Assembly: GCA_014803435.1 (NCBI GenBank)
Contig: JACYFD010000004.1
Coordinates: 186,001-250,000 of the forward strand
From: Cellulosimicrobium terreum
GTDB lineage: Bacteria > Actinomycetota > Actinomycetes > Actinomycetales > Cellulomonadaceae
Reading direction: 5' to 3'
Length of the DNA: 64,000 nt
The notes under the pieces were generated by a model, which did no database searches, was not told the origin of the DNA, and saw nothing but the letters and a program-made list of their open reading frames with translations. Made by a program: the position numbers and the translations under genes. Positions within the stretch are counted from its first letter, which is position 1. Each line of letters opens with the position of its first letter. Of this stretch, positions 15,288 to 46,342 are shown one piece after another.

Positions 15288-15396
15288 CAGGGGCGCTGCG
15301 GGGCGGCCGTGCCGGATCTACCATCCGCCCGCTCGTACCTCGCGGGCTCCCGCCAGACCCACCACGACCCGGCACGGCCACCCCTCCGCGCCCCTG
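15288..15396. repeat. Structured intergenic element, copy 1
   Basis: Outer arms 15288-15315 and 15369-15396 pair at 25 of 28 positions. The 53-base interior contains a GGAT/ATCC hairpin, a GCCCGC/GCGGGC hairpin with loop TCGTACCTC, and a CTCCCGCCAGACCC stretch. The interior is nearly identical to that at 46261-46313, while the outer stems are unrelated in sequence. It sits between the 3' ends of xthA and the galactose gene, so it may act as a two-way terminator or a structured repeat. Confidence 0.8.
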
Positions 15397-15450
15397 AGCG
15401 CCGGCGGGTCGGCCGGCCGCGCGAGGCAGCGTGCGTGCTGAGGAGTCAGG

Positions 15451-17940
15451 TCAGGCGACGAGGTCGGCCGGGCCGGAGGGCGTGGCGAGGAGGAAGCCGG
15501 GTGCGCGGAAGCCCTCGCGCTCGAAGGCCGCGCGGACGGCTTCCGCGACGGCCCCGGCGCGGTCGGCGGCGACGAGGGCGATCGCGGACCCGCCGAAGCC
15601 GCCGCCGGTCATCCGCGCTCCGAGGGCCCCGGCGACGCGCGCCGCCTCGACCGCGACGTCGAGCTCGTCGCAGGACACCTCGTAGTCGTCGCGCAGGGAC
15701 ACGTGGGAGGCGTTCATGAGCGGGCCGATCTCGGCGGTGCGGCCGGCCTGCAGGAGGGCCACGAGATCGACGACGCGGCCGATCTCGGTGACGACGTGGC
15801 GCACCCGGCGGCGGGCGACGTCGTCCGGGAGCTTGTCGAGGGCGATCTCGAGCGTTCCCGTGGGGTCGTCCGACGCGGCGGTGGCGTCGGCGAGCTCGCG
15901 CAGCGAGGCGAGCCCGAGCGACTGCGCGGCCGTCTCGCACGTGTCGCGCCGCTGGGCGTACTGCCCGTCGACCAGCTGGTGTTCCGCGTGCGTGTCGATG
16001 ACGAGGACGGCCAGCCCGGCGGCCGCGAGGTCGAACGGCTCCTGCTCCGCGGACCGGGCGGGGTCCAGCCCCGGCCGGCAGTCGAGGAGGAGGGCGTGGC
16101 CCGCCCGGGCGCGCAGCGACGCGGACTGGTCCATGCCACCGGTCGGAGCCCCCGCGATCTCGTTCTCGGCGCGGACGCACGCCGCCGCGAGGGTCGCCCG
16201 CCCGGCGTCGGACGCGGCGAGGCCGAGCCCTGCGACGTCGTCGAGCGCGACCGCCACGGCGCACTCGAGCGCCGCCGACGACGACAGCCCCGCGCCGAAC
16301 GGCACGCACGAGTCGATCGCCGCGTCGAACCCGGTGATCGCTCCCCGGGCGTCCCCGGTCTCCGCGAGGTGCTGGCGCAGCGCCCACGCGACCCCGGCGA
16401 CGTAGGCGCCCCACCCGGTGACGGAGCCGGGCGCGACGTCGTCGAGCCGGGTCTCCCAGATCTCGCCGGGCGCCTGCGCGGACGCGAGGTGGATCAGGCC
16501 GTCGGTGCGCGGCCGCAGCGCGACGAACGTGCGGTGCGGCAACGCGATCGGCAGGCACAGCCCCGCGTTGTAGTCCGTGTGCTCGCCGATGAGGTTGACG
16601 CGTCCCGGCGCGCTCCACACGCGCGGTTCGTCGTCGTCGGAGGCGTCGGCGAAGGTGTCGGCGAACACCGCGCGGGCTCTCGCGGCGCCGACCTCCGTGG
16701 TCCACGCCGTCACCCACCCGCGCGCCGTCCCGGCGGGGGCGAGCTCCTGGAGGCGGGAGGCGATCCGCTCGGGCGTCGTGTCGCTGATCCACGCGCCCAT
16801 GCCGGACTCGGACCCCGCGAGGTACTTGAGCCGGCCGGGGGCGCGCAGCACCGAGAACACCTGCAGGTGCAGCCGGGTGACGGTCACCTCGTCCGTGCCG
16901 CCGTCCGCGACCGACCGTCCCTCGTGCGCCGGAGCCTGGTGCCACGCCGCGATGTATGGCAGGGGGATCGGGTCGCCGTCGGCGGTCTCGAAGAACCGGT
17001 CGAGCCGGCGCAGCAGCTCGAGGTACGTCGTGGCGAGATCGTCGCGCTCGGCGTCGGTCAGGGCCGGCAGGTCGGGGACGTCACGCCGGGGTGCGAGGTG
17101 CACCTCCACGGGCCACCGGGCCGCGTAGGGCACGTAGGCGACCCAGTGCTCGGACTCGAGCACGACGCGCCGCCCGTCCGCGAGCTCGGAGTCCAGCACG
17201 TCGCGCAGCAGGTTCCGACCCGTGCGCGCGTGGTGGTCCCGCGCCTGGGTGAGCAGCGCGCGCGTGCGCGGGGTGACGTACGGGTAGCCGTAGATCTGCC
17301 CGTGCGGGTGGGGGAGCGTGACGCCGATCTCCTCGCCGCGGTTCTCGAAGCAGAAGACCTGCTCGACGCCGGGCAGGGCGCCGAGCGCGGCCGTGCGGTC
17401 CGCCCAGGCGTCGATGATCGTGCGGACGCGCTGCGGTCCGAGCGCCCCGAACGACGAGCGGTGGTCGCTCGAGAAGCACACGACCTCACACCGGCCCGCC
17501 GCCGGGCCGTGCACCTGGAGAGGGGTGTCGTCGACGGTCTCGTCCGGCACGCCGGGGACCTGCTGCAGGGACGGGAAGCGGTTCTCGAACACCACGACGT
17601 CGTAGTCGGTGTCCGGGATCTCGCCGTCGGAGTATGCGCTCCCCGGCTTCGCGGGGCACAGCGGGCACGAGTCCGCGGCGGGCAGGAACGTGCGGTTCAT
17701 CCGGTGCGCCGCCATCGGGATCCAGTCCCCGGTGAGCGGGTCGAGCCGCATCTGGGGACCGGCGTACGGGTGCGGCCGCCCGTCCGGACCGGGCACGGTC
17801 GCGAACCGGTCCGGCAACGGTCGCGGGTCGTCGAGCCGACGGGTCCGCTCGCCCGACACGTACGGGGGCGAGTCGTCGAAGTAGACGATCTCGCGCCCGT
17901 CGGCCAGACGTGCCGAGGTGCGGCGCAGGTGGTGGTTCAT
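15451..17940 (-). CDS. Galactose-1-phosphate uridylyltransferase / galactokinase in one reading frame
   Basis: One uninterrupted 829-residue frame encodes two Leloir-pathway enzymes. Residues about 1-405 are GalT: zinc-type SCPLCPA near 91-97, catalytic HPHGQIYGYP, and the C-terminal YLAGSESGMGAWISDTTPE. Residues about 410-829 are GalK: signature APGRVNLIGEHTDYN, GHMP motif VPFGAGLSSSAALE and MTGGGFGGSAIAL. There is no stop between them, but a GTG at 16713 would start a normal 420-residue GalK, and its GTGA would supply a GalT stop in the neighbouring frame. So it is either a true fusion or a galT-galK pair joined by a small indel (or sequencing error). It is downstream of a DeoR regulator (55-base gap). 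Confidence 0.88.
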   Translation of the reverse strand: MNHHLRRTSARLADGREIVYFDDSPPYVSGERTRRLDDPRPLPDRFATVPGPDGRPHPYAGPQMRLDPLTGDWIPMAAHRMNRTFLPAADSCPLCPAKPGSAYSDGEIPDTDYDVVVFENRFPSLQQVPGVPDETVDDTPLQVHGPAAGRCEVVCFSSDHRSSFGALGPQRVRTIIDAWADRTAALGALPGVEQVFCFENRGEEIGVTLPHPHGQIYGYPYVTPRTRALLTQARDHHARTGRNLLRDVLDSELADGRRVVLESEHWVAYVPYAARWPVEVHLAPRRDVPDLPALTDAERDDLATTYLELLRRLDRFFETADGDPIPLPYIAAWHQAPAHEGRSVADGGTDEVTVTRLHLQVFSVLRAPGRLKYLAGSESGMGAWISDTTPERIASRLQELAPAGTARGWVTAWTTEVGAARARAVFADTFADASDDDEPRVWSAPGRVNLIGEHTDYNAGLCLPIALPHRTFVALRPRTDGLIHLASAQAPGEIWETRLDDVAPGSVTGWGAYVAGVAWALRQHLAETGDARGAITGFDAAIDSCVPFGAGLSSSAALECAVAVALDDVAGLGLAASDAGRATLAAACVRAENEIAGAPTGGMDQSASLRARAGHALLLDCRPGLDPARSAEQEPFDLAAAGLAVLVIDTHAEHQLVDGQYAQRRDTCETAAQSLGLASLRELADATAASDDPTGTLEIALDKLPDDVARRRVRHVVTEIGRVVDLVALLQAGRTAEIGPLMNASHVSLRDDYEVSCDELDVAVEAARVAGALGARMTGGGFGGSAIALVAADRAGAVAEAVRAAFEREGFRAPGFLLATPSGPADLVA

Positions 17941-17995
17941 ACGAATCCGTTCACGTTCTCGTGCGTGCGTGCGTGCTGGTGGGCCGGATCGGCGG

Positions 17996-18769
17996 TCAGG
18001 AGATGACGAGCTGTTCGACGAGCTCGTCGACGCGCGAGCGTGCGTCCGCGGGGAGCCCGGCGTCCGTCACGAGGACGTCGACGTCGGCGAACGTCGCGAA
18101 GACCCGCAGCCCCGTGGTGTGCCACTTGGTGTGGTCGGCCAGCACGACGGTGCGGCCCGCCGAGCTGATCAGGGCCCGGTTGGTCGCGGCCTCGTCGAGG
18201 TTCGGTGTCGTCAGGCCGACGTCGGGGTCGACGCCGTGCGCGCCGAGGAACGCCTGGTCGACCCGGAGCCCGGCGAGCGCTGCCTCCGCGAGCGGTCCGA
18301 CGAGGGCGTCGGACGGTGTCCGCGACCCCCCGGTGAGGATCGTCTCCAGCCGGGGATCGTTCGCGCGGTACAGCGTCTCGGCGACCGGGAGCGAGTTCGT
18401 GACCACCGTGAGCGGCCGCAGCTGGGGCGAGGCCACGATGTGCGCGGCCAGCAGGTGCGTCGTCGTGCCGGCGCTCAGGGCGACGGAGGAGCTCGGCGCG
18501 ATGAGCCTCGCCGCCGCCTCCGCGATCGAGCGCTTCTCGGTGGCCTCGCGCGTGCTCTTGGCCGCGAAGCCCGGCTCGTGCGCCGTCGTGTGCGGAGCGA
18601 CGGCACCCCCGTGGACCTTGCGGACGAGTCCCTGGTCCGCGAGGTCCATGAGATCTCGGCGGATCGTCATGTCGGAGACCTCGAGCTCCTGGGTGAGGTC
18701 GGCGATGCGGACGGCACCCTGGTCACGGATCTCGGCGAGGATCCGCTCCTGACGCTGCGATGCGAGCAT
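17996..18769 (-). CDS. DeoR/GlpR-family transcriptional regulator, probably of the galactose genes
   Basis: A 257-residue repressor-type protein. The N-terminal DeoR winged helix (about 6-58) is textbook: IADLTQELEVSDMTIRRDL then LVRKVHGGAV. The rest is a DeoRC sugar-phosphate sensor domain (SVALSAGTTTHLLA, TVVTNSLPVAETL, ADHTKW). It lies immediately upstream of the GalT-GalK frame on the same strand, so an inducer from galactose metabolism is likely (inference). A direct repeat upstream of the gene is a good operator candidate, implying autoregulation. Confidence 0.92.
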   Translation of the reverse strand: MLASQRQERILAEIRDQGAVRIADLTQELEVSDMTIRRDLMDLADQGLVRKVHGGAVAPHTTAHEPGFAAKSTREATEKRSIAEAAARLIAPSSSVALSAGTTTHLLAAHIVASPQLRPLTVVTNSLPVAETLYRANDPRLETILTGGSRTPSDALVGPLAEAALAGLRVDQAFLGAHGVDPDVGLTTPNLDEAATNRALISSAGRTVVLADHTKWHTTGLRVFATFADVDVLVTDAGLPADARSRVDELVEQLVIS

Positions 18770-18804
18770 GCCGCACAGTATTGTCCAGATCGGCCGAGAA
18801 TTCC

Positions 18805-18829
18805 AACACGATCAAACACGACCGAACAT
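18805..18829 (-). promoter_or_regulatory. Candidate operator of the DeoR regulator
   Basis: The plus strand shows CACGATCAAA followed at once by CACGACCGAA, a direct repeat with exactly one helical turn of spacing (18807-18826), typical of DeoR-family operators. It is about 35 bases upstream of the regulator's ATG, with a TACTGT -10-like box between (five bases before the ATG), so bound protein would cover the -35 region. Confidence 0.6.
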
Positions 18830-18844
18830 GTGGCGGGCTCCGGA

Positions 18845-20056
18845 TCAGTAGCGGATCGCGTCGATCACCTTGACACGCACCGCCACGAGGGCAGGTAGCA
18901 GGCCCGCCACGGCCCCCACGACGACGGCCGCGAGCATGCCCGCCACGGCGGCGGATACGGGGAAGCCGGGGCGGTCCTGCACCGGTGATCCCATGAGCGC
19001 GTCCAGCGGGAGGTTGTGCAGCACCACCACCGCGACGCAGACGCCCACGGCCCCGGCGACGACCGTCGCGACCACGCTCTCCATGAGCACGGAGAAGAAC
19101 ACCCGGCCGGACCCGGCCCCGAAGCTGCGCCGGATCCCGATCTCGCGGATGCGGTAGCGGACGGTGACGAGCGCGATGTTGACGAGCCCGAGGCCGCCGA
19201 GCAGCAGGGCGATGATGCTCACGCCGAGCACGACCCAGCCGATGGCGCCGTCGACGACGTCGTACGACGGGGAGTCGAGCCGGTACACGTCGGCCTGGAC
19301 ACCGCTCAGCGCTCCCGCGACGTCTCGCCGCACGGCGTCGGTCAGACCGTCGGCCAGCTCGTCCGGAACCCACAGCTCGAGCATCGGTGGCCCGTACATC
19401 TCGAGGGCCTCCGGGGTGACCCAGGTCGCCTGGGCGTCGACGAGCACGTACGCCGACGGCTCGACGCCCTCCCACTCGTCCGGGAACGAGCCGACGACGG
19501 TCGCCACGACGGGGTTGTCGCCGCCGATGGTGACGGTGGGGTGGTCGGCGACCCGGACCCCGCCGAGAGCCTGGAGGAACGCGTCGTTGACGACGAGAGC
19601 GGGCGAGAGCCGCTCGGCGTCGCTCTCCTCGAGCCAGCGACCCGACTCGACCTCGAACCGGTGCATGGTCGCCCACACCGGGTCGACGCCCAGCGTCTGG
19701 ACCTCGCGCGTCCCGTCGGGGAAGCGCACCGCTGCGGAGGCCGGGCGCACCGTCGTCGCGTGCTCGACGGAGTAGCGGGTGACGACGTCGTCGAACACCC
19801 GCTCGTACTCTTCGGGGGCCGGGAGCTGCGCACCGGACTCCCCGGTCGGCCACGCCGTCACCTGCAGCGTCGCGGGCCGCCCGCCCCACCGCTCGTTCTG
19901 CTCCGCGGACACCTGGCGCAGCATCTCGCCCGCCGCGGTGATCGCGGTGATCGCGCACACCGCGACGGCGACGCCGATCAGCGCGAGCAGGACCCGCACA
20001 CGGTGGACCCGGAGCTCGTCCCAGGCCTCGATGACCGCGCCCACCAGGCCGGTCAT
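18845..20056 (-). CDS. MacB/FtsX-like ABC exporter permease
   Basis: A 403-residue permease with the FtsX/MacB architecture: one N-terminal membrane helix (about 19-42), a large extracytoplasmic MacB-PCD domain (about 45-280) and three C-terminal helices with the coupling segment RIREIGIRRSFGAGSGRVF (near 305-323). It overlaps the ATPase gene by four bases, and both follow an adaptor protein, giving a MacAB-type tripartite exporter. Such systems export antibiotics, peptides or lipoproteins; the substrate here is unknown. Confidence 0.88.
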   Translation of the reverse strand: MTGLVGAVIEAWDELRVHRVRVLLALIGVAVAVCAITAITAAGEMLRQVSAEQNERWGGRPATLQVTAWPTGESGAQLPAPEEYERVFDDVVTRYSVEHATTVRPASAAVRFPDGTREVQTLGVDPVWATMHRFEVESGRWLEESDAERLSPALVVNDAFLQALGGVRVADHPTVTIGGDNPVVATVVGSFPDEWEGVEPSAYVLVDAQATWVTPEALEMYGPPMLELWVPDELADGLTDAVRRDVAGALSGVQADVYRLDSPSYDVVDGAIGWVVLGVSIIALLLGGLGLVNIALVTVRYRIREIGIRRSFGAGSGRVFFSVLMESVVATVVAGAVGVCVAVVVLHNLPLDALMGSPVQDRPGFPVSAAVAGMLAAVVVGAVAGLLPALVAVRVKVIDAIRY

Positions 20057-20886
20057 GCGCCGCCTCCCGTGCGGAGGAGTGCGCCCGCGCCCTCGGTGAG
20101 CGGTCGCGCCACGTGCTCGGCCTGGTCGTCGACCGCCGGGGTCGGTGCCCGCGTGCCGGACGCCTCACCGAGCGCTTCGAGCGAACCGGCGGTCCGTGCG
20201 CTGATCGAGATGGGCGTGAGCACGCCCTCGGCCAGCCGGAACTGGCGCGATGCGCGGGACGCGACAGCGAGGTCGTGCGTGATGGCGATCAGCGCCGACC
20301 CGTTCTCGCTCGCGATCGAGTCGAGCAGGTCCATGACCTCGTTCCCGGTGTCCACGTCGAGGGCTCCCGTGGGCTCGTCGGCGAGGATGACGCGCGGCGT
20401 GCGCACGAGCGCCCGCGCGATGGCGACGCGCTGCTGCTCACCGCCGGAGAGCTTCTCCGGACGGGTGTCGAGCCGGTCGCCGAGGCCGACGCGCTCGAGC
20501 ATCTCGGCCGCGAGGGTGCGGCGTCGCCAGAACTGACGTCCGCGCGCGTAGAGCAGGGGCATGACCACGTTCTCGAGCGCCGTGCGGCCCTGCAGCAGGT
20601 TGAACTGCTGGAAGACGAACCCGAAGTCGGTACCGCGGCGGCGGGCGCGGCCCCGTCCGGACAGCCGGCCGATGGGGGTGCCGTCGAGCAGGTGCTCACC
20701 GCTCGTCGGCGCGTCGAGCAGGCCGAGGATGTTGAGCAGCGTCGACTTCCCCGTCCCGGAGCGCCCCACGACGGCGACGTGCTCGCCCGCGTCCACGGTC
20801 AGGTCGATGCCCCGCAGGATCTCCAGCAGCCGGTCGTCCGGCAGGCGCACGGACCGTGTCACGTCGTGCAGCTCGAGCAGGTTCAT
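20053..20886 (-). CDS. MacB/LolD-like ABC exporter ATP-binding protein
   Basis: A 277-residue ATPase: Walker A GRSGTGKST (about 39-47), signature LSGGEQQRVAIARAL (near 140), Walker B VILADEPTGALD (near 160) and the switch His in AITHDL. After the ABC domain (about 220 residues) it has a 50-residue Ala/Pro/Thr-rich tail that most relatives lack. The ATG at 20886 overlaps the adaptor's stop; the frame is open far upstream, but that part is a shadow of the adaptor gene. Confidence 0.92.
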   Translation of the reverse strand: MNLLELHDVTRSVRLPDDRLLEILRGIDLTVDAGEHVAVVGRSGTGKSTLLNILGLLDAPTSGEHLLDGTPIGRLSGRGRARRRGTDFGFVFQQFNLLQGRTALENVVMPLLYARGRQFWRRRTLAAEMLERVGLGDRLDTRPEKLSGGEQQRVAIARALVRTPRVILADEPTGALDVDTGNEVMDLLDSIASENGSALIAITHDLAVASRASRQFRLAEGVLTPISISARTAGSLEALGEASGTRAPTPAVDDQAEHVARPLTEGAGALLRTGGGA

Positions 20887-21914
20887 CAGAAGGAGCCCTC
20901 GTCCGTCATGCCGGCCTCGACGGACTCGACGTCCTGACCGGGAACGAACTCGAGCACCTCGTCGCCCTCGGCGAGCCCCTTCGTGATCTCCACGACGCTG
21001 CCGTCGGTCAGACCGAGCGACACCTCGCGCTCCTCGGGCTCGCCGTCGTCCCCGAGCACCCAGACCTTGCCCAGCTCGACTCGGCCGAGCACCGCGGTCA
21101 CGGGCAGCACCAGCGCACCCTCGACGGAGCCGGCCGTGATCTCGATCTCGGCGGCGAGCCCGGCGAACACGGTCACGTCGCCCGGCACGGCGCAGGTGAC
21201 CGACGCCGAGGAGCCCTCGCCCACGGCCTCGCTGCCCTCTGCGCCGGTGCCCTCGCCGGTGCCCTCGCCGCCGGCGGCCGCGGAGCCCATGCGCAGTCCT
21301 GTGCAGGTGAAGGGCGCGGGACCACCGGTGACCGTGACGGTCGCCTTCTTCGGGATCTTCAGCAGGCGGAACTGCTGCTCGGCCGCCATCGACCCGCTCG
21401 CCGACAGCGTGCCGGGAGAGATCGTCGCGAAGTCCTCCCCGACGGCGACCTCCTGGTCCACGAGGGCGGTGAACGTGGCGACCCTGCCCGCCGTCGTGGC
21501 GGTGACGGTCTCGCGCGTGACACGGGGCCAGCGCTCGGTCACGGTGACCTCGCCCGTCTCCGGGTCGGTCTCGGTGAGCGGCTCCTGGGGCTCGGTGAGG
21601 GTCACCTCGAGCAGCGGGTCGTCGACCTTCACGGCCTCGCCCGGCTTCACGAGGACCGCCGTGACGACCCCGCGCTGCGTGATTTTCTGGGTGGCGGCCG
21701 GGTCGGCCACGATCTGTCCCGTGACGGTGACGGTGTTGGTGACGTCCCCGGTGGCTACCGCGACCTGCGGCTCCACGAGCTCGGCCGAGGGCACGGTCGG
21801 GTCCGGCGGCGCCTGCGGCGCAGAACGGAACGCGATGGTGGCGAGCGAGACGGCGATGACTCCCCAGACGACGAGGCGCAGGGCGGGGAAGATGATCCGA
21901 CGGGTGATGCCCAC
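20886..21914 (-). CDS. HlyD/MacA-like membrane-fusion adaptor protein
   Basis: A 342-residue membrane-anchored protein: an N-terminal helix (about 12-28) then an extracytoplasmic region with adaptor features: VTGQIV, the lipoyl-like pair RGVVTAVLVKPGEAVKVDDPLLEV and TTAGRVATFTALVDQEVAVGE, and a C-terminal beta domain with GLAEGDEVL. A Gly/Glu/Ser-rich insert (about 210-235) interrupts the beta-barrel. It is the first gene of the exporter operon (adaptor, ATPase, permease, with four-base or shorter overlaps). GTG start with CAGGAG upstream. Confidence 0.82.
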   Translation of the reverse strand: MGITRRIIFPALRLVVWGVIAVSLATIAFRSAPQAPPDPTVPSAELVEPQVAVATGDVTNTVTVTGQIVADPAATQKITQRGVVTAVLVKPGEAVKVDDPLLEVTLTEPQEPLTETDPETGEVTVTERWPRVTRETVTATTAGRVATFTALVDQEVAVGEDFATISPGTLSASGSMAAEQQFRLLKIPKKATVTVTGGPAPFTCTGLRMGSAAAGGEGTGEGTGAEGSEAVGEGSSASVTCAVPGDVTVFAGLAAEIEITAGSVEGALVLPVTAVLGRVELGKVWVLGDDGEPEEREVSLGLTDGSVVEITKGLAEGDEVLEFVPGQDVESVEAGMTDEGSF

Positions 21915-21991
21915 GGGGCGGACTCCTGGGTGACGGCGGCACGACCCGGGCGTCGGGCCGACCCGACCCTAGGAGAGACCGACGTCGCCCG

Positions 21992-22013
21992 ACATCAGCC
22001 TTTGGGCTGATGT
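21992..22013. promoter_or_regulatory. 9-bp perfect palindrome upstream of the exporter operon
   Basis: ACATCAGCC (21992-22000) and GGCTGATGT (22005-22013) flank a TTTG loop. It lies downstream of the Mrp gene and about 78 bases upstream of the adaptor start, just upstream of where a -35 box would fit for the TAGGGT at about 21967-21972 (minus strand). It could be the Mrp terminator or a regulator site for the exporter; the sequence alone does not decide. Confidence 0.5.
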
Positions 22014-22036
22014 GCGAGGTTCGTGCGGTCCGTGGG

Positions 22037-23218: not shown

Positions 23219-23224
23219 GGCTCC

Positions 23225-23230
23225 ATCGTA
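23225..23230 (-). promoter_or_regulatory. -10 box (TACGAT) of the leaderless Mrp transcript
   Basis: On the minus strand TACGAT is followed by six bases and the ATG at 23218. Confidence 0.65.
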
Positions 23231-23240
23231 GGTGGGGTGG

Positions 23241-25035: not shown

Positions 25036-25041
25036 GTCGTC

Positions 25042-25047
25042 AGCCTA
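25042..25047 (-). promoter_or_regulatory. -10 box (TAGGCT) of the leaderless MgtE-like transcript
   Basis: On the minus strand TAGGCT, then six bases, then the GTG at 25035. Confidence 0.65.
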
Positions 25048-25912: not shown

Positions 25913-25918
25913 GGGGCG

Positions 25919-37106: not shown

Positions 37107-37190
37107 CACCCTCCTGACCCTCGTGACCCACCCGGCGTCCGGTGGTTCCGGGGCGCCGGCGATGTGGGCGGCCCGTGGTTGCATCGCACC

Positions 37191-40100
37191 GTGCTGACGT
37201 CCCCGACCCGGTCCGCCGCTTCTCGGCCCGCCCCGACCCGACCCGACGCGCCACGGCTCGTCGCGCGCACGGCGGACGCGGACGCCGTCGTGCGGCTCGA
37301 TCCCTCCCAGCAGGACGCCGTGCAGGCCGCGGCGCTGCCCGGGTCCACGCTCGTGGTGGGTGCACCGGGTACCGGGAAGACCCTGGTCGCGCTGGAGACC
37401 GTCGTCACCGCGCTCGAGCAGGGGACTGAGCCCGCGCGCGTCCTCCTGCTTGCGGCGACGCGCCGCGGTGCGGCGACGCTGCGCGAGCGGCTCTCCGCAC
37501 GGACGAGACGCACGGTGGGTGCGCCGATGGTGCGCACGGCCGCGTCCGCGGCGTTCGCCGTGCTGCGCGAGCGCTCGGCGGCGCTCGGCGAGGCGCCACC
37601 CACGCTCATCTCGGGGCCTGAGCAGGACCTCGCGCTCGCGGAGCTCCTCGCCGGCCACCTGGCAGGCGAGGGCGCCCCGCTCGACCTCCCGCCCGGAGTG
37701 CCGGCGGAGGCTCTCGGGCTGCGCGGCCTGCGCCAGGAGCTGCGGGACCTGCTCATGCGCGCGGCGGAGCGCGGGCTCGTCCCCGCCGACCTCGCCGAGC
37801 TCGGCCGACGGCACGACCGTCCGGAGTGGGTGCTCGGCGCCCGGCTCTACGCCGAGTACCTGGACGTGACGGCGCTGCGGGCGGGCACGCCGGACGCGGG
37901 GGCCCGGTACGACCCCGCGATCGTGGTGGACGAGGCGGCGCAGGCCCTGCTGGCGTGGGACGACGAGGTGCCCGACGCGCCGCGGCCCACGTGGGACCTC
38001 GTGGTCGTCGACGACTACCAGGAGGCGACGGTCGCGACGGCGAGCCTGCTCCAGGTGCTGGTGACCGACGGCGCCCGCCTCGTGCTGACCGCGGACCCGG
38101 ACTCCGCGGTGCAGGGCTTCCGCGGCGCGAGCCCGGGCCTGGTCGGGCGCGCGGGGGCGCCCGCGCGCGGTGGCGTGGGCGAGCTCGGGGCCCGTGTCGT
38201 CGCGCTCGGGACGGCGTGGCGCCAGCCCGCGACGCTGCGCGAGCTGACCCGTCGGGTGACCTCCCACGTGGGGACCGTGGCCGGTGCGATGCACCGTGGT
38301 GCCGTCGCCGGCCGTCCGACGGGACTGGCCGAACCTGCCGCGGCGGTCAGCGCGACCCCTGCCGTCCAGGTCGCCGTCCTCGGTGGGACGGCTCAGCAGG
38401 CCGCGTACGTCGCGCGCGAGCTGCGGGCGGAGCACCTGCTGAACGGCACGCCGTGGCACCGCATGGTCGTGCTCGCGCGCTCCGGGGACCAGCTCGCCGC
38501 TCTCCGCCGCGAGCTCGTCGCCGCGTCGGTACCCGTCGCGCTCCAGGGATCCGACGTGCCGCTGCGCGACGAGCCCGCCGTGTCGCCGCTGCTCGCGGCC
38601 GTACGCGTCTGCGTCCCCGGACCAGCTGCCGGACCGGTCGCGGAGACCGGGCCCGCCGAGCCCGACGACGTACCCGTCGACGCGCCCGACGGCGCGGTCG
38701 AGCTCCACGACGTGACCGGGCCCGACGCCGCGACGGCGCAGCCGCAGGGCGGTGGCCTCGACCCGCTGACGGCGTCCTCGCTGCTCACGTCGCCGCTGGG
38801 CGGCCTCGACGTCGTCGGGCTGCGTCGTCTGCGCCGCGCGCTCCGGGCGGAGGAGCTCGCCGGTGGTGGCGGACGGTCGTCGGACGCCCTGCTCGTCGAG
38901 CTGCTCGAGGACCCGGACCGGGCGTCGACGCTCGGGGCTCTGCGTCGCGGTCCGGTGGCCGTCGCGCGGGCGCTGGCCGCGGGACGGGCGGCCGCCACCG
39001 CTCCGGGTGCGGACGCGCAGACCGTGCTGTGGGCCGTGTGGGAGGCGACCGGGCTCGCCGAGCGGTGGCGGTCCGCAGCGCTCGCGGGTGGCCCGTCCGG
39101 CGCGCGTGCGGACCGCGACCTGGACGCGGTGCTCGCGCTGTTCCGGGCGGCCGAGACGTTCGTCGACCGCATGCCGGGCGCTCCCGCTGCCGCGTTCGTG
39201 GACTATCTCGCGTCCCAGGACCTCCCGGCCGACTCCCTCGCGGCGAGCGCGGGCGGGCTCGACGCGGTCGCCGCGCTGACGCCGGCCGGTGCGGCCGGGC
39301 GCGAGTGGGACGTCGTCGTCGTGGCGGGTGTGCAGGACGGGGTGTGGCCGGACCTCCGTCTGCGCGACTCGCTGCTCGGCTCGCAGGCTCTCGTCGAGCT
39401 GCTCGCCGGCCGTGCCGACGACGCGCACGGGGTGGGTGCCCAGGCGCGCGCCCAGGTCCTCGCAGACGAGCTGCGGGCGTTCGCGGTCGCGACGTCGCGG
39501 GCGACGCGCCGACTCGTCGTGACCGCCGTCCAGGACGCGGAGGAGTCGCCGTCGGTGTTCTGCGACCTCGTCGCACCACCCCCGGACCCGGACGACCCCG
39601 ACGAGCCTGGCACGTCGGCGCACCCGGACGGTGATCCGTCGTCCGGCGGGGGCGCGGCGGACGACGATCGCGTCGAGCGCCGCCACGTGCGTGTCGGTGC
39701 CCCGCTCGACCTGCGGGGCGTGGTCGCGGCGGCGCGTGCCGTCCTCGTCGGCGACGCGGCGCGGGCCGGCGTCGGTTCGGACACGGCGGGGAGCGACGGC
39801 GCCGACGCGGCCGCCGTGCTGCTCGCCGACCTCGCCGCGTGCGGGGTGAGCGAGGCCGAGCCCCGGACCTGGTACGGCATCCCGGGACTCTCGTCCACCG
39901 TCCCGTTGCGGGCCGCGGACGAGCCGGTCCCGGTCTCGCCGTCGAAGGTCGAGACCGTGACGACGTGCCCGCTGCGCTGGACGCTCGAGGCCGCCGGCGG
40001 GACAGCGCCGGACGCGACGCACCAGAACCTCGGCACCCTCGTCCACTCCATCGCGGAGACGTTCCCGTCGGGGTCGCTCACCGAGCTGCGCGCCGAGCTC

Positions 40101-40673
40101 GACCGACGCTGGCCGGAGCTCGCGCTGCCGGACGGCTGGCCGTCGGTGCAGATGCGCCGTCGGGCGGACCGGATGGTCGTGAAGCTCGCCGAGTACGTGG
40201 CCGGCGCCGGGCGACCCGTCCTCGTGGAGCCGTCGTTCGAGGTCGAGGTCGGCCGGGCCCGCTTGCGCGGCACCGTGGACAGGGTGGAGGAGGCGGGCGA
40301 CGGCGCGGTGCGCGTGGTCGACCTCAAGACCGGCCGGCGGACCGTGACCAAGGCCGAGGCCGACGCGCACCCGCAGCTGGGCGCCTACCAGCTCGCGGTC
40401 GAGGACGGCGCGCTCGACCTTCCCGACGGGACGCGCAGCGCGGGGGCGCAGCTCGTCTACGTGGGCAGCACCCACGTCGGTCCGGCGGTCGTCGCCCAGC
40501 CCGGGCTGCGCAGCGGGGAGGACGGGTCCAGCTGGGCGCGCGAGCTCGTCGAGGAGGCTGCCGAGACGATGGCGGCGGCGACCTTCACCGCGCGGCAGGG
40601 AAAGCTGTGCGAGGTGTGCCCGGTGCGCCGGGCGTGTCCCGTGCAGCCCGAGGGACGGAAGGTCGTGGCATGA
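37191..40673 (+). CDS. adnA: AdnA-type helicase-nuclease subunit
   Basis: A 1160-residue subunit of the actinobacterial AdnAB double-strand-break resection motor-nuclease. Motor: Walker A GAPGTGKT (about 58-65), motif II VVVDDYQEA (about 271-279; DDYQ rather than DEYQ, fitting the weaker motor of AdnA), and GQW-like AWRQPATLRELTRRV. Nuclease: RecB-type VVDLKTGRR (near 1043) with QLGAYQLAV. Cysteines in TTCPLRW (near 926) and CEVCPVRRACPV (near 1140) fit an AddB-like Fe-S clasp. Start: GTG at 37191, six bases after TTGCAT; a GTG at 37164 is the alternative. The stop overlaps adnB (ATGA). Confidence 0.9.
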   Translation: MLTSPTRSAASRPAPTRPDAPRLVARTADADAVVRLDPSQQDAVQAAALPGSTLVVGAPGTGKTLVALETVVTALEQGTEPARVLLLAATRRGAATLRERLSARTRRTVGAPMVRTAASAAFAVLRERSAALGEAPPTLISGPEQDLALAELLAGHLAGEGAPLDLPPGVPAEALGLRGLRQELRDLLMRAAERGLVPADLAELGRRHDRPEWVLGARLYAEYLDVTALRAGTPDAGARYDPAIVVDEAAQALLAWDDEVPDAPRPTWDLVVVDDYQEATVATASLLQVLVTDGARLVLTADPDSAVQGFRGASPGLVGRAGAPARGGVGELGARVVALGTAWRQPATLRELTRRVTSHVGTVAGAMHRGAVAGRPTGLAEPAAAVSATPAVQVAVLGGTAQQAAYVARELRAEHLLNGTPWHRMVVLARSGDQLAALRRELVAASVPVALQGSDVPLRDEPAVSPLLAAVRVCVPGPAAGPVAETGPAEPDDVPVDAPDGAVELHDVTGPDAATAQPQGGGLDPLTASSLLTSPLGGLDVVGLRRLRRALRAEELAGGGGRSSDALLVELLEDPDRASTLGALRRGPVAVARALAAGRAAATAPGADAQTVLWAVWEATGLAERWRSAALAGGPSGARADRDLDAVLALFRAAETFVDRMPGAPAAAFVDYLASQDLPADSLAASAGGLDAVAALTPAGAAGREWDVVVVAGVQDGVWPDLRLRDSLLGSQALVELLAGRADDAHGVGAQARAQVLADELRAFAVATSRATRRLVVTAVQDAEESPSVFCDLVAPPPDPDDPDEPGTSAHPDGDPSSGGGAADDDRVERRHVRVGAPLDLRGVVAAARAVLVGDAARAGVGSDTAGSDGADAAAVLLADLAACGVSEAEPRTWYGIPGLSSTVPLRAADEPVPVSPSKVETVTTCPLRWTLEAAGGTAPDATHQNLGTLVHSIAETFPSGSLTELRAELDRRWPELALPDGWPSVQMRRRADRMVVKLAEYVAGAGRPVLVEPSFEVEVGRARLRGTVDRVEEAGDGAVRVVDLKTGRRTVTKAEADAHPQLGAYQLAVEDGALDLPDGTRSAGAQLVYVGSTHVGPAVVAQPGLRSGEDGSSWARELVEEAAETMAAATFTARQGKLCEVCPVRRACPVQPEGRKVVA

Positions 40674-43600
40674 CGGGGGACGTCTCGGGAGGGCTGTTCG
40701 ACCTCGAGGACCTGGGGCCGGTGCGCGCCCACGTGCGCCTGGTGCAGGACGATCCTGGCCCTGGTTCGCGCGCCGACGCGCCTGGATCCCCTTCCGGGAG
40801 CGGCCGGCGACGCATCGCGGCCACGGACATCGCCCGGCTGCTCCGCCGCCCCGAGCCGACGCCCGAGCAGATCGAGGTGATCGAGGCTCCGCTGGAACCG
40901 ATGCTCGTCGTCGCGGGCGCAGGCTCGGGGAAGACGGAGACCATGGCCGCGCGCGTCGTGTGGCTCATCGCGAACGGGCTGGTGCGGCCCGACGAGGTGC
41001 TCGGGCTGACGTTCACGCGCAAGGCGTCCGCGGAGCTGACCGACCGGGTCCAGGCCCGGCTCGCCCAGCTCGCCCGGGCGCGCGGGGACGCGGCGTCCGG
41101 GCTCGCGCTCCTGGAGCGCCCGACGATCTCGACGTACAACGCGTACGCGGCGACGCTCGTCGCCGACCACGGCCTGCGGGTCGGCGTCGAGCCGGGGTCA
41201 CGGCTGCTCGGCGAGGCCGAGCAGTGGCAGCTCGCGTCGCAGGTCGTCGAGAGCTGGGACGAGGACCTGGGGACCGACCGTGCGGTGAGCACGGTGGTGG
41301 CCGCCGTGCTCGGCCTCTCCGGTGCCCTGTCGGAGCACCTCCTCGACCCGCGCGACGCGCGCGACCGGATCGACGAGATGGTGGCGTCGCTCGACGCCCT
41401 GCCGCTGGGCCCACGGCAGAAGGCCCGCACCAAGGAGGTCACCAAGCTCGTCGGCGACGTCGCCGAGAGGTCGCGGCTGCTCGGGGTCGCGACGGCCTAC
41501 CGCGAGCGCAAGCGCACGGGCGACGCGCTCGACTTCGGCGATCAGGTGGCGCTCGCCGCCCGGCTTGCGCGCGACATCCCCGTCGTCGGCGCGACCGAGC
41601 GCACGCGCTTCCGCGTCGTCCTGCTGGACGAGTACCAGGACACGTCCCACGCGCAGGTCGAGCTGCTCGCCGGGCTCTTCGGTGGTGGTCACGCGGTGAC
41701 CGCCGTGGGCGACCCCCACCAGTCGATCTACGGGTGGCGGGGAGCGAGCGCCGGTGGCCTCGCCCGGTTCCCGGAGCGCTTCGCGCGCGCCGAGAGCCCT
41801 GCCACGGTCCACTACCTGTCCACGTCCTGGCGCAACGATGCGGCGATCCTCGCCGCCGCGAACGTCGCGTCGGCACCGCTGCGCGGCGCGACGACGCGGG
41901 CGCAGGACACGAGGGTCCCACCGCTCGCGCTGCGTCCGGACGCCGGGCCGGGGCGTGTCGGCGCGCACGTCGCGACCACCCTCGAGGAGGAGGCGGCGGC
42001 GGTCGCCGAGCTCGTCGCGACGCGGTGGCGGCCCGCGAGGGCTCCCGGCGGCCGGGTCACGGCGGCCGTCCTGTGCCGCAAGCGCAGCCAGTTCGCCGCG
42101 GTCGAGGTGGCGCTGCGGCGTCGTGGTCTGCCGGTCGAGGTCGTCGGTCTCGGCGGGCTCCTCACGACCCCGGAGGTCGTAGACGTCACGTCCCTGCTCG
42201 AGGTCGTGCACGACCCGTCACGCGGCGACGCCCTGGTGCGGCTCCTGACGGGGCCGCGGGTCAACCTCGGCGCGGCGGACCTCCATGCGCTCGCCGGGCG
42301 CGCGGCGGACCTCGCACGCCTCGACGGGCTGTCGACGCGTGGTCGTGGCCGGCACGGGGCGCAGGACGGGGCGGTCGTCGAGGGCGACGTCGTCGACCAC
42401 CGCTCGATCGTCGACGCGCTCGACGACCTGCCCGGTCCGGGTGCGCAGAGCGCGGACGGCCGCGGCCTGACCACGACCGCGCACGAGCGCCTGACCGTCC
42501 TCTCGGCGACGTTGCGCGACCTGCGCTCCCTCACGTACCTGTCGTTGCCCGAGCTCGTCGCGGAGGCGGAGCGCGCGCTGGGGCTCGACGTGGAGGCCGT
42601 GGCGACGCAGGCGCTGCTCGCCACCCGCCGGCTGGCCGACCCGGACGCGGTCAGCGACCGGGCGCGCGAGCACCTCGACGCGTTCAGGGACGTCGCGGCG
42701 ACGTTCGCGCAGACAGCGGACGTCGCGACCCTGGGTGCGTTCCTCGCGTGGCTTGGCGTCGCGTCGACCCGGGAGAACGGGCTCGACCTGCCGGTGCGGG
42801 AACCTGACCCCGACGCCGTGCAGGTGATCACGGCGCACGCCGCGAAGGGGCTCGAGTGGGACGTCGTCGTGGTGCCCGGCCTCGTGGACGGGGTGTTCCC
42901 GACGATCGCGCAGGCCGCGTCCGGGGTGCGAACCGACAGCGGGTGGCTCACGGACGTCGCGCAGCTGCCGTACCCGCTGCGTGGGGACGCGACCGACCTG
43001 CCCGACTTCCGGTACGACCTCGCGTCGGACACCAAGGACCTCGTGGTGCGGCGGGACGAGTTCCGGGCCGCGTGCGGTGAGCACCAGCTCGCGGAGGAGC
43101 GCCGTCTCGCCTACGTGGCGTTCACCCGGGCCCGTCGCGAGCTCTTCCTCACGGCGTCGTGGTGGCAGGGCGGCAGCACACCCCGTGCGCTGTCGCCGTT
43201 CTTGCACGAGCTCGTCGACGCCGGTGTCGTGCAGGGCGACGGCTGGGCTGCTCCGCCGGTCCCCGGGGACGTCAACCCGTTGCAAGACGTCGAGGTCACG
43301 GGGACGTGGCCGGACCCGCAGGCGGACGGGCCGGTGCCCGGGGCGGCCGGTTCGCCGTGGTCGGCGCGGTCGTTGCTGCGCGCCACCGCGGCTCGCGTGG
43401 AGCACGCGGCCGCGGGTCGCACGGGTCAGGACCAGCTGACGGCGCAGGACGGGGTCCTCGTCGACGAGGACGGGCGCGACCTCGTCGGGCTCGCCCGCGT
43501 GCTCCTCACCGAGCGCGCCGAGCGGACCGGCGGTGCGGTCCAGATGCCGGGGCACGTGTCCGCGTCGGCGCTCGTGCGGATCGCGACGGACCGCGACGAG

Positions 43601-44173
43601 TTCGCACTCCACGTGCGCCGGCCGGTGCCCGCGCAGCCGACCGTGCACGCGCGCCGCGGCACCCAGTTCCACCTGTGGGCCGAGCGGTACTTCACCCGGT
43701 CCTCGCTGCTCGACGTCGAGGACCTGCCCGGGGCGGACGACGAGGGCACCGAGCACGACCTCGATCTCGCCGACCTGCAGGAGACGTTCCTCGCCTCGCC
43801 CTGGGCGGCGCGTTCGCCCCTGGCCGTGGAGGTCGACGTCGAGACCACCGTCGGTGACACGGTCCTGCGCTCGCGCATCGACGCGGTCTTCCCCGAGCGG
43901 TTCCCCGGGGCGTCAGGTTCGTCGGGCGCGGTGTCGGACGGGGTCGACGGGGTCGTCGTCGTCGACTGGAAGACGGGTCGCGCGCCGACCGATCCGGATG
44001 CCCGCCGCACGCGCGAGGTGCAGCTCGCCGTGTATCGGCTGGCGTGGTCGCGCTGGTCCGGGCTGCCGCTGGAGCGCGTCGCGGCGGCGTTCTACTACGT
44101 CGCGTCGGACGAGACTGTGCGGCCGGAGCGGCTGCTGGACGAGGCAGGGATCGAGGCGCTGCTGCGGGGCTGA
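40670..44173 (+). CDS. adnB: AdnB-type ATP-dependent helicase-nuclease subunit
   Basis: A 1167-residue partner of AdnA and the likely lead motor. UvrD-type motor: GAGSGKTETMAARVV (Walker A, about 83-89), FTRKASAELTDRV (Ia), VVLLDEYQDTSHAQVELL (II, near 318), GDPHQSIYGWRGA (III), TAHAAKGLEWDVVVVPGL (V) and YVAFTRARRELFL (VI). The C-terminal RecB-like nuclease has FHLWAERYF and VVVDWKTGRAP (near 1098) with QLAVYRLAW. With adnA it forms a translationally coupled operon. Length and motifs match mycobacterial AdnB. Confidence 0.93.
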   Translation: MTGDVSGGLFDLEDLGPVRAHVRLVQDDPGPGSRADAPGSPSGSGRRRIAATDIARLLRRPEPTPEQIEVIEAPLEPMLVVAGAGSGKTETMAARVVWLIANGLVRPDEVLGLTFTRKASAELTDRVQARLAQLARARGDAASGLALLERPTISTYNAYAATLVADHGLRVGVEPGSRLLGEAEQWQLASQVVESWDEDLGTDRAVSTVVAAVLGLSGALSEHLLDPRDARDRIDEMVASLDALPLGPRQKARTKEVTKLVGDVAERSRLLGVATAYRERKRTGDALDFGDQVALAARLARDIPVVGATERTRFRVVLLDEYQDTSHAQVELLAGLFGGGHAVTAVGDPHQSIYGWRGASAGGLARFPERFARAESPATVHYLSTSWRNDAAILAAANVASAPLRGATTRAQDTRVPPLALRPDAGPGRVGAHVATTLEEEAAAVAELVATRWRPARAPGGRVTAAVLCRKRSQFAAVEVALRRRGLPVEVVGLGGLLTTPEVVDVTSLLEVVHDPSRGDALVRLLTGPRVNLGAADLHALAGRAADLARLDGLSTRGRGRHGAQDGAVVEGDVVDHRSIVDALDDLPGPGAQSADGRGLTTTAHERLTVLSATLRDLRSLTYLSLPELVAEAERALGLDVEAVATQALLATRRLADPDAVSDRAREHLDAFRDVAATFAQTADVATLGAFLAWLGVASTRENGLDLPVREPDPDAVQVITAHAAKGLEWDVVVVPGLVDGVFPTIAQAASGVRTDSGWLTDVAQLPYPLRGDATDLPDFRYDLASDTKDLVVRRDEFRAACGEHQLAEERRLAYVAFTRARRELFLTASWWQGGSTPRALSPFLHELVDAGVVQGDGWAAPPVPGDVNPLQDVEVTGTWPDPQADGPVPGAAGSPWSARSLLRATAARVEHAAAGRTGQDQLTAQDGVLVDEDGRDLVGLARVLLTERAERTGGAVQMPGHVSASALVRIATDRDEFALHVRRPVPAQPTVHARRGTQFHLWAERYFTRSSLLDVEDLPGADDEGTEHDLDLADLQETFLASPWAARSPLAVEVDVETTVGDTVLRSRIDAVFPERFPGASGSSGAVSDGVDGVVVVDWKTGRAPTDPDARRTREVQLAVYRLAWSRWSGLPLERVAAAFYYVASDETVRPERLLDEAGIEALLRG

Positions 44174-44174
44174 G

Positions 44175-44195
44175 CCGGCCGGGTCCACCGGCCGG
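44175..44195. terminator. Short hairpin between adnB and the phosphotransferase gene
   Basis: CCGGCCGG (44175-44182) pairs perfectly with CCGGCCGG (44188-44195) around GTCCA, between convergent genes. Confidence 0.6.
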
Positions 44196-44203
44196 ACCGG
44201 TCG

Positions 44204-45121
44204 TCAGGAATCGTCGCGGGTCGCGTCGTCGAGGTCGGCGAGCATGTCCATGGCGTCGGCCACCACATCGTCCAGGCCGTGCCGCACGCCGTGCAGGAGC
44301 CACCGCGCGAGCGCGAGCTCGCTCACGAGCAGCGCCCGGTCGGTGAGCCGGGAGTCGGTGAGCTCGGTGCGGCGCAGCTGGTACGCCTCCGTGATGGAGT
44401 CGACCGACTCGGGCGGGGCCGACGCGAGGAGCCACGCCAGGTCGTCCGCGGGGTCGGCGACGCGGGCGTCGGACCACCCGGTGACCGCGACGACGCGTCC
44501 CCGGGCGACGAGCACCTGCTCCGGGCCGAGGTCGCCGTGCACGACGACAGGCTGGAACCGCCAGAGCGAGACGTCCTCGAGGGCGGCCTCCCAGCGGCGC
44601 AGGAGCCGCGTCGGGACCCTCCCGGTCTGGGCCGCCTCGTCGAGCTCGCTCATGCGCCGCTCCCGGTACTCCTCCACGGAGTACCCGGGCAGACCTGCGT
44701 CGTCGACGATCGAGCGGGGCAGCTCGTGGATCGACGCCAGCACCCGCCCCAGGTCGGCTCCGAGCCCCGGGCCGGGGCGCAGGGAGTCGACGTCGAGCGC
44801 CGAGCCTTCGAGCGCGGGGTGCACGACGGCGCGCCCGCCCTCGGGCAGGAGCGCGAAGCCCGCGAGCCGGGGGACGGCGAAGGACAGGACGCCGGAGTCG
44901 ACGTAGAGCTGCAGCGAGCCGAGCAGCTCGGTCTCCGCCTCGAGCGCGGCGCCGGCCTGCAGGCTGCGGGGAGCGCGCACCGTCCAGCGGCCGCCGTCGC
45001 CGTCGGTCACGACCGCGGTGTCGTAGTCGCCCGGGTCGTGGACGGCGTGCGCCGTCCGGGCGTCGAGGCCGGGGACCGCGGCGGTCGCGAGCGCGGCGAG
45101 CGTCAGGGGAGAGCGTGGCAC
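44204..45121 (-). CDS. APH-like phosphotransferase family protein
   Basis: A 305-residue kinase-like protein of the aminoglycoside/macrolide phosphotransferase fold. The catalytic segment VVVHGDLGPEQVLVARGRVVAVTGWSDARVADPADDLAWLL contains the HGDL loop, but the usual second Asp (IDW) is replaced by TGWSDAR; the first part (LQAGAALEAETELLGSL) supplies the nucleotide Glu. Its position between adnB and nudC is conserved in actinobacteria, which argues for a housekeeping role rather than acquired resistance. The GTG lies six bases after TACCGT. Confidence 0.85.
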   Translation of the reverse strand: MPRSPLTLAALATAAVPGLDARTAHAVHDPGDYDTAVVTDGDGGRWTVRAPRSLQAGAALEAETELLGSLQLYVDSGVLSFAVPRLAGFALLPEGGRAVVHPALEGSALDVDSLRPGPGLGADLGRVLASIHELPRSIVDDAGLPGYSVEEYRERRMSELDEAAQTGRVPTRLLRRWEAALEDVSLWRFQPVVVHGDLGPEQVLVARGRVVAVTGWSDARVADPADDLAWLLASAPPESVDSITEAYQLRRTELTDSRLTDRALLVSELALARWLLHGVRHGLDDVVADAMDMLADLDDATRDDS

Positions 45122-45127
45122 CCGTTC

Positions 45128-45133
45128 ACGGTA
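45128..45133 (-). promoter_or_regulatory. -10 box (TACCGT) of the leaderless phosphotransferase gene
   Basis: On the minus strand TACCGT, then six bases, then GTG at 45121. Confidence 0.65.
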
Positions 45134-45204
45134 GTCGCTCGGACGGCGCTCGCAGGGGCACCCACGCCGGTACCGGTCCGCTCATGGGCTCGGCAGGAGA
45201 GGGT

Positions 45205-45210
45205 TACGGT
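45205..45210 (+). promoter_or_regulatory. -10 box (TACGGT) of the leaderless nudC gene
   Basis: TACGGT, then six bases, then the ATG at 45217. Confidence 0.65.
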
Positions 45211-45216
45211 CGGGGG

Positions 45217-46215
45217 ATGAGCACCGCGATCTCCCGGCCCCTCCGGCTGCCGCTCGACGGCGAGACCGTCGACCGGGCGGCCCACCGGCGCGCGGAGCCC
45301 GACCTCGTGCAGGCCCTGCGCGGCCTCGCGACGACCCGGGTGCTCCTGGTGCACCGCGGCCGTGTCGCGGTGCGCGCGGACGGCACGGCCGCGCTGCTGG
45401 GACCCGACGCGTGCGAGCGGGTGCCCGGACCGGACCAGGGCGAACGGCCCCGCTGGATCTTCCTCGGCGAGCAGGCGGGGACCGCCTACCTCGGGCTGGT
45501 GCTGTCCGACGACGCGGATGCCCAGGACGTCGACATCGAGGGCGTCGACCCGCACGACCCGTTGTCCGACCTCGTGCGCGCTCACGGGTGGCGAGGGCTG
45601 CGCGAGCTCGTCACGGCCGACGGCACGGGGAGCGGTACGGGCGGGGCGCTCGCCACCGGGGCGGTCGCGCTCGCGGCGTGGCACGCGGCGCACGAGCGGT
45701 GCCCCCGGTGCGGCGAACCGACGGTGCTCGAGAACGCGGGCTGGACCCGTCGCTGCGTCGCGCAGGGGATCGACCTGTACCCGCGGACGGACCCGGCCGT
45801 CATCATGAGCGTCGTCCACGGCGACGGTGACGACGAGCGCCTGCTGCTCGGGCACGCCGCCCACTGGCCGGACCACCGGTTCTCGACCCTGGCCGGCTAC
45901 GTGGAGCCGGGCGAGTCGCTCGAGCAGGCGGTGCGTCGTGAGGTGCTCGAGGAGAGCGGGGTCGTCGTCGGCGAGGTCGGGTACCGGGGCAGCCAGCCGT
46001 GGCCGTTCCCGGCGTCCCTGATGCTGGGCTTCCACGCCCGGGCGACGTCGACGGAGATCCGGGTCGACGGCGTCGAGCTCACCGACGCGCGCTGGTTCAC
46101 CCGCGCCGAGCTCGGTCGCGCCGTCGACGCGAAGGACGTCCTGCTGCCCGGGCGCGCGTCGATCGCCCGGGCCCTGATCGAGGACTGGTACGGCGCGGTG
46201 CTCCCCGATCTCTGA
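45217..46215 (+). CDS. nudC: NAD(+) diphosphatase
   Basis: NudC hydrolyses NADH/NAD to NMN and AMP and can remove NAD caps from RNA. The 332-residue product has a zinc-ribbon region (CPRCGEPT, about 162-169, then RRC near 179), the Nudix box GYVEPGESLEQAVRREVLEESGV (from about 228) and the NudC-specific SQPWPFPASLMLGF after it. Only three of the four expected zinc cysteines are visible (RRCVAQG lacks the last). Start fixed by the leaderless -10 box. Confidence 0.95.
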   Translation: MSTAISRPLRLPLDGETVDRAAHRRAEPDLVQALRGLATTRVLLVHRGRVAVRADGTAALLGPDACERVPGPDQGERPRWIFLGEQAGTAYLGLVLSDDADAQDVDIEGVDPHDPLSDLVRAHGWRGLRELVTADGTGSGTGGALATGAVALAAWHAAHERCPRCGEPTVLENAGWTRRCVAQGIDLYPRTDPAVIMSVVHGDGDDERLLLGHAAHWPDHRFSTLAGYVEPGESLEQAVRREVLEESGVVVGEVGYRGSQPWPFPASLMLGFHARATSTEIRVDGVELTDARWFTRAELGRAVDAKDVLLPGRASIARALIEDWYGAVLPDL

Positions 46216-46233
46216 CGGACACGGGACGTGCGG

Positions 46234-46342
46234 GGCGCTGGCCTGCGCGGGCGGGATCGCGGATCTTCCATCCGCCGCTCGTGCCTCGCGGCTCCCGCCA
46301 GGCCCGCCACGACCCGCGACCCCGCCCGCTCCGGCCTGCGCC
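46234..46342. repeat. Structured intergenic element, copy 2
   Basis: Outer arms 46234-46260 and 46316-46342 pair at 23 of 27 positions, extended by GG/CC. The interior shares GGATCT-CCATCC, CTCGTGCCTCGCGG and CTCCCGCCAGGCCC with copy 1 at 15288-15396. The inner hairpin is one base pair shorter on both sides (GCCGC/GCGGC versus GCCCGC/GCGGGC), a compensating change. As in copy 1, it sits between two convergent genes (nudC and mycoredoxin). Confidence 0.8.

Follow-up and report, generated by a model that had tools for sequence, protein, structure and literature searches.

The 64 000-nucleotide stretch of Cellulosimicrobium terreum contig JACYFD010000004.1 analysed here (the window, to which all coordinates refer) contains two long hairpins, at 15288-15396 (copy A) and 46234-46342 (copy B), each formed round a near-identical nested core. 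Both lie between the 3' ends of convergent genes, copy A between an exonuclease III-type EEP protein (plus strand) and a GalT-GalK fusion (minus strand), and copy B between a NUDIX protein (plus strand) and a glutaredoxin (minus strand). The outer arms of copy A (15288-15318, 31 nt, with 15366-15396) pair at 27 of 31 positions and those of copy B (46234-46265, 32 nt, with 46311-46342) at 27 of 32, counting Watson-Crick pairs only and allowing no gaps; the arm sequences of the two copies are unrelated. The core of copy A (15319-15365), delimited by alignment with other copies in the genome, consists of TA, CCATCC, an inner hairpin and TCCCGCCAGACCCACCAC, and the corresponding core of copy B (46266-46310) of TT, CCATCC, an inner hairpin and TCCCGCCAGGCCCGCCAC. 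The inner stems, assigned by alignment and covariation, are GCCCGC (15327-15332) with GCGGGC (15342-15347) in copy A, enclosing the conserved 9-nt loop TCGTACCTC (15333-15341), and GCCGC (46274-46278) with GCGGC (46288-46292) in copy B, enclosing the equally conserved loop TCGTGCCTC (46279-46287). Read directly, the interiors from GGATC to GACCC measure 57 nt in copy A and 55 nt in copy B, and are separated by four substitutions and by one base pair of the inner stem gained or lost on both sides. The original prediction had reported such an interior between unrelated but paired stems, the lost inner pair and the convergent setting, and was correct on each; its pairing figures of 25 of 28 and 23 of 27 refer to the same arms, counted over slightly shorter lengths.

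When the whole window was scanned for 27-nt arms with at least 22 Watson-Crick pairs and a separation of 55-59 nt, only the places of copies A and B matched, in neighbouring registers. Folded as single strands, the hairpins gave energies 2.8 to 7.9 standard deviations under those of dinucleotide shuffles (four strands folded). Direct reading of the two window copies found no T-run on either side of the hairpins; of the features of an intrinsic terminator, the hairpin is present and the U-run is not. No Rfam family matched at either element in the whole window at the gathering threshold, copy A remained without a match even at E ≤ 10, as did the element at three related loci searched at E ≤ 5.

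The two hairpins belong to a larger family. BLAST with copy B against its own genome recovered 24 copies at E < 0.001, copies A and B included, and a covariance model built from 23 BLAST copies, a search that the original prediction had proposed, raised the total to 27. Below, genomes carry G numbers (G000 being that of the window and the others the compared genomes) and loci carry L numbers. The model matched in all 17 genomes of the genus searched, with 12-66 matches per genome, and in 22 of the 59 genomes searched altogether (the 17 of the genus and five others). The distribution beyond the genus is patchy: in an order-wide draw, 23 of 297 genomes and 11 of 95 genera matched at E ≤ 1e-4, own genome included, with 13 candidates scored per genome, such that copy numbers from this draw are lower bounds. 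Among the matches listed by a pattern scan were Cellulosimicrobium, Luteimicrobium, Isoptericola, Antribacter, Oerskovia, several Actinomyces and others. Fourteen matches from other genera were read, and all had long paired arms of differing sequence and a recognisable core, with CCATCC intact in 12 (the exceptions being L426 and L432); four were intragenic by our own gene calls. Three loci from another family of the order (L427, L430 and L433) kept CCATCC and TCCCGCCAG and had a different, longer inner hairpin with another loop. Carriage on phages, plasmids or viral contigs was rejected because copy B had no blastn match in phages and plasmids and the exact core pattern had no match in viral contigs. 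No published description of the hairpin family was found in a limited literature search, and it has apparently not been described before.

On the plus strand of the window the unit runs from the outer arm through two bases (mostly TA or TT), CCATCC, the inner stem, the loop TCGTNCCTC, the returning inner stem, TCCCGCCAGNCC and a short C-rich stretch to CCAC or CCA, and ends with the second outer arm. It is ∼110 bp long, or ∼200 bp including the shoulders in one subfamily, and its core of 45-47 nt is nested within the long hairpin. A total of 217 distinct elements were collected with a pattern that demanded equal inner arms of 4-8 nt and tolerated two loop mismatches, and the loop TCGTNCCTC was found in 213 of them. 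The inner stem was entirely Watson-Crick in 166 of the 217, and their 5' inner arms came in 36 versions; the stretch of 12 outer-arm bases adjoining the core took 107 different forms. In the alignment of 23 copies, 80.4% of cells were paired, compared with 39-47% in controls with slid arms, and 26 of 30 pairs had changed on both sides. The observed values were reached by none of 500 shuffles, a comparison that kinship among copies can win without structure, which leaves the slide control as the clear one. With respect to the window copies, the strand chosen for the model is not that of the upstream transcript but its complement, which leaves the pair counts unaffected. Arm covariation in the family is very strong, and the earlier claim of a real family with covarying stems was confirmed. 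Two departures from the layout were seen: a copy with outer arms and the remaining core lacked the inner hairpin (L025/L057; G000 C8:559573-559653), and in L220 (G007) the core was interrupted by another hairpin of ∼56 nt (GGGATCGTCC...GGACGATCCC).

Covariation of this strength, together with the low folding energies, is what would be expected of a selected RNA element of mRNA 3' ends, acting as a two-way terminator or in processing or stability, with stems kept by compensatory substitution and a core that binds a protein or folds specifically. The placement of the copies bears on this explanation from both sides. Sites were found with a fuzzy pattern on G000, G012 and 80 loci standing for at least 114 named stretches, the pattern missing diverged copies (23 of the 27 G000 copies were counted). 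Of 139 sites, five at contig edges and three that were unclear were dropped; the remaining 131 comprised 45 convergent, 33 tandem sense, 25 tandem antisense, two divergent and 26 intragenic sites. These sites are not independent, as the orthologous sites in uvrD, hrpA and the biotin carboxylase gene recur in related strains. Genes were called by our own codon-usage open reading frame caller, trained on the window and used without annotation check, and the element was masked with stop codons and N so that neighbouring genes end there. The intergenic sites were convergent in 45 of 105 cases, tandem in 58 and divergent in two, against a baseline of 29 convergent, 134 tandem and 28 divergent among 191 gene pairs. 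Intergenic copies are thus enriched at convergent and depleted at divergent gene pairs, a 3'-end bias of the kind that the original prediction had expected and that an RNA element of 3' ends would show. Also in keeping with such an element, the hairpin starts -7 to 63 nt from the upstream stop codon in 14 convergent or tandem-sense copies of G000. Convergent placement did not, however, hold as a rule of the family. About one-fifth of the classified sites lay inside genes in both orientations (17 sense and nine antisense; the peptide showed one antisense call, L253, to be a false match, which reduces the count to 25 of 130).

The strand on which the structure might be selected was further assessed from orientation and mismatches. 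At tandem pairs the sense and antisense orientations numbered 33 and 25, which is not significant (p = 0.36); a sense-strand RNA preference suggested by an early count was withdrawn once more sites had been counted. Arm mismatches in the 217 elements comprised 77 G-U and 74 A-C, with no excess of wobble, and after removal of similar arms the remaining 113 elements gave 21 G-U and 38 A-C, leaning to the other strand if anything. The occurrence in genes in both orientations, the lack of a significant tandem bias and the missing wobble signature among the mismatches argue against selection on the RNA strand as the general cause of arm matching. The absence of a T-run after the window hairpins and of any Rfam match also counts against an RNA element, which we consider unlikely; the functional, 3'-end reading is weaker than the reality of the family itself.

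The intragenic copies sit in poorly conserved linkers or tails and use three reading frames. Their hosts, assigned by Pfam, were UvrD/PcrA, a methylcrotonyl-type biotin carboxylase, DNA polymerase III alpha, HrpA, a molybdopterin oxidoreductase, a thioredoxin-NHL protein, LigD, an RNase H-like protein, ferrochelatase, a P-type ATPase, an ABC ATPase and FtsW/RodA. Presence at orthologous intragenic sites varied. The element was found at the uvrD site in seven of 10 genomes (decayed in G010, reduced to its 3' half in G008 and absent in G013), at the biotin carboxylase site in eight of nine, at the thioredoxin-NHL site in three of seven with a remnant in G008, at the DnaE site in three of 10 with only a one-arm-like sequence in G005, G009 and G012, at the HrpA antisense site in two of 10 with the left half kept in G009 and G012, and at the molybdopterin oxidoreductase site in two of eight. 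The sequences at the biotin carboxylase site have lower arms that differ by clade (GGGGGAGGGG or GGGGGGTGTG type), and the second arm follows suit, G000 being an exception with arms of mixed type. Cellulosimicrobium, Isoptericola and Antribacter have the element in one common frame within the HrpA DUF3418 linker, and a different family has it there in another. In the ferrochelatase linker of Actinomyces it is antisense in A. ruminicola and A. succiniciruminis and sense in A. bovis (ferrochelatase being identified by Pfam in A. ruminicola and A. bovis).

At the HrpA site of G002, G003 and G005 a different core lies between similar shoulders. A second hairpin family with similar shoulders (GTGCTCGGGCT / ACGCCCTTCGCATCC type) and a different inner core was recorded there (L384 in G005, L386 in G002 and L389 in G003), and at the molybdopterin oxidoreductase site of G005 (L410), which suggests that cores may be exchanged.

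The two window sites are themselves seldom occupied in related genomes: the orthologous site of copy A is occupied in two of 17 genomes and that of copy B in one of 17, and by eye many other genomes hold different inverted repeats there. In G013 the core is absent from the copy A site, which holds a plain hairpin whose lower arms are closely similar, as would be seen if the core inserted into the loops of pre-existing terminator hairpins and the outer arms were those of host terminators. The G013 state may equally be a deletion, hairpin losses being seen elsewhere; moreover, intragenic copies have equally long arms with no terminator to use, and amplified copies bring their arms along. Insertion into terminator loops is accordingly very improbable. 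The two orientations of placement, and the combination of a conserved core with free arms, would also suit a structure that acts as DNA, such as a hairpin or cruciform bound by a chromosomal protein (a REP-like gyrase or nucleoid site) and displaying the core as the binding site. We regard a bound hairpin of this type as improbable, since 12-66 matches per congener and none found in 274 of 297 genomes of the order would be odd for a housekeeping site, and since most congeners lack the two window sites though other sites are common to several species.

Amplification was apparent in G012 and G016, where one subfamily is repeated at unrelated loci, arms and shoulders included. A subfamily pattern collected 66 copies in six genomes, 43 of them exact and 56 with at most two differences; it accepts similar copies only, yet all 21 elements from 36 orthologous regions fitted it. 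The differences amounted to 0.7-1.0% in the arms and 1.2% in the core, the arms being no more variable than the core, while gene fragments next to subfamily sites differed by ∼0-15% between these genomes. This low arm divergence argues for recent spread or copy-to-copy homogenization, and not for free drift of arms under pairing selection, which is a further point against an RNA element. Whole hairpins have also been lost. G006 and G007 lack the hairpin at one site but retain its shoulders; at another, G012 lacks a hairpin that G016 carries, the gap lying between CGCCCTG direct repeats.

Several further features were noted. Tandem repeats of 19-21 bp (GCGAGGTAGAGCCGTGGTC type) lie upstream of many subfamily copies and inverted copies of them downstream of some (G012/G016 loci among L157-L212; orthologues L213-L248). 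At five G012 sites (L160, L168, L172, L174 and L180) an IS110-family transposase gene, so assigned by Pfam PF02371 on one C-terminal piece, ends near the element with its 3' end facing it. Targeting of the hairpin by IS110 was rejected, as at the two junctions read (L168 and L180) the transposase end lies within the neighbouring tandem repeat and not in the hairpin. At L420 in G012 a poly-G/poly-C tract replaces the hairpin of G016, possibly a sequencing failure at the hairpin.

The elements are probably copies of a non-autonomous mobile palindromic DNA repeat, scattered in Cellulosimicrobium and in some related actinobacteria. Copies at unrelated loci, presence and absence between species, intragenic copies in both orientations and losses of whole hairpins are traits of such a repeat, and from these we infer that copies have moved. 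The core would be conserved because it is read by a mobility system acting in trans, and is presumably the part so recognized. The arms would be free in sequence, with complementarity as the only demand on them, and would be matched mainly by template switching between arms during replication. Template switching in an imperfect palindrome would rewrite one arm from the other (quasi-palindrome correction) and could invert the spacer; passages in two accounts of the process predict matched multi-base changes in both arms and spacer inversion (PMC8794818; PMC8604942). This correction is a mutational process and not an element, and would have acted here on the arms. Covarying arms would then arise without RNA selection. 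Insertions would survive where they are least harmful, behind genes and in protein linkers, and the position bias may reflect best survival in these places. Transcribed intergenic copies may incidentally serve as terminators or 3' stabilizers. The original prediction thus stands in part. The family, its covarying stems and the 3'-end bias were upheld, and among the kinds it had suggested the REP-like one came closest; its deduction that covariation marks a selected structure rather than a repeat was not supported, in view of the matches in every congener, the subfamily at unrelated loci, the window copies missing from most congeners and the intragenic copies.

A more radical form of the mobile-repeat explanation, possible though doubtful, is a hairpin parasite with the core as its sole heritable sequence, the arms arising or being rewritten site by site through DNA template switching that draws in part on the flanking host sequence. 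Unrelated copies would then mimic textbook RNA covariation with no RNA selected. Template switching would also account for inversion of the core in place, as in the ferrochelatase linker, and for old intragenic copies remaining palindromic across genera.

Several observations weigh against a mobile repeat, and some of these favour an RNA element. For at least 22 of the 34 sites in G012, G016 has a copy that shares the left flank (27 of the 37 G016 copies were fetched first and three later), with three further sites added afterwards, and the element was present in 21 of 36 orthologous regions of four other congeners. With so many sites common to several species turnover must be slow, and hairpins shared between species at many orthologous sites would be expected of a selected RNA. 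The core is recognizable across several families, including in genomes with one match found, which again suits an RNA element, and the element reappears in the same frame at the HrpA and NHL-protein sites of different genera, such that some copies are old and have been retained. No fresh insertion with clean ends or a target duplication was seen among the sites compared, and clean differences between close genomes look like deletions. No mobilizing gene was found, a partner being sought only as PF01797: this Y1 transposase family was absent from all 17 genus genomes and was detected in five of 14 control genomes, and mobilization of the RAYT/IS200 type was rejected on this basis. In G000 alone the tandem sense and antisense copies numbered seven and two. 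Finally, 42 of the 45 convergent copies lie nearer the stop codon of the gene to which they are sense. This proximity could be a functional preference, and would suit an RNA element; it could instead follow from an asymmetric unit, since in the subfamily seen the shared shoulder extends further at the 3' side.

The family was compared with known small repeats. Miniature inverted-repeat transposable elements such as ERIC, Correia and RUP are small, non-autonomous, dispersed and hairpin-forming, as are the elements described here; the difference is that neither a terminal repeat shared with a resident transposon nor a target duplication was identified, neither having been searched for exhaustively. 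Passages in PMC10969869 describe Rickettsia palindromic elements (RPE) as palindromes of ∼150 bp, many of them in-frame in unrelated genes and others intergenic, which are said to encode a conserved peptide. The Cellulosimicrobium elements are palindromes of similar size that likewise lie in-frame inside unrelated genes. As far as those passages go, they differ from RPE in using three frames and both orientations; they also occur in another phylum, and their arms are unrelated between many copies round a constant nested core. REP/BIME sequences (GTAG- and CGTC-tagged, with RAYT transposases) are described in parts of PMC3733652 as dispersed palindromes of 20-40 bp, mostly between convergent or tandem genes near 3' ends, with some intragenic, many of these in replication and repair genes; the main text of that paper does not mention 'Actinobacteria'. 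The present elements share with REPs, as so described, a dispersed palindromic form and enrichment at gene 3' ends, but are ∼110 bp long with a nested hairpin (a GTAG or CGTC tag was not searched for), and the genus genomes had no RAYT/Y1 match. The family resembles RPEs and REPs yet fails a tested feature of each, set apart from the former by its three frames and two orientations and from the latter by its size and the absence of a RAYT.

Two further features of the window were recorded. The GalT and GalK domains beside copy A lie in one reading frame at 15451-17940 (Pfam), and a ZMP/ZTP riboswitch lies at 10298-10414 (Rfam RF01750).

With a mobile repeat of this kind, the palindromic repeats known to colonize both intergenic space and coding sequence would gain an actinobacterial family. 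In this family a very strong covariation signal coexists with copies in both orientations in unrelated genes. If the arms are maintained by template switching, covariation by itself, usually taken as proof that an RNA is functional, can arise without RNA selection, and the hairpin family would be a natural test case.

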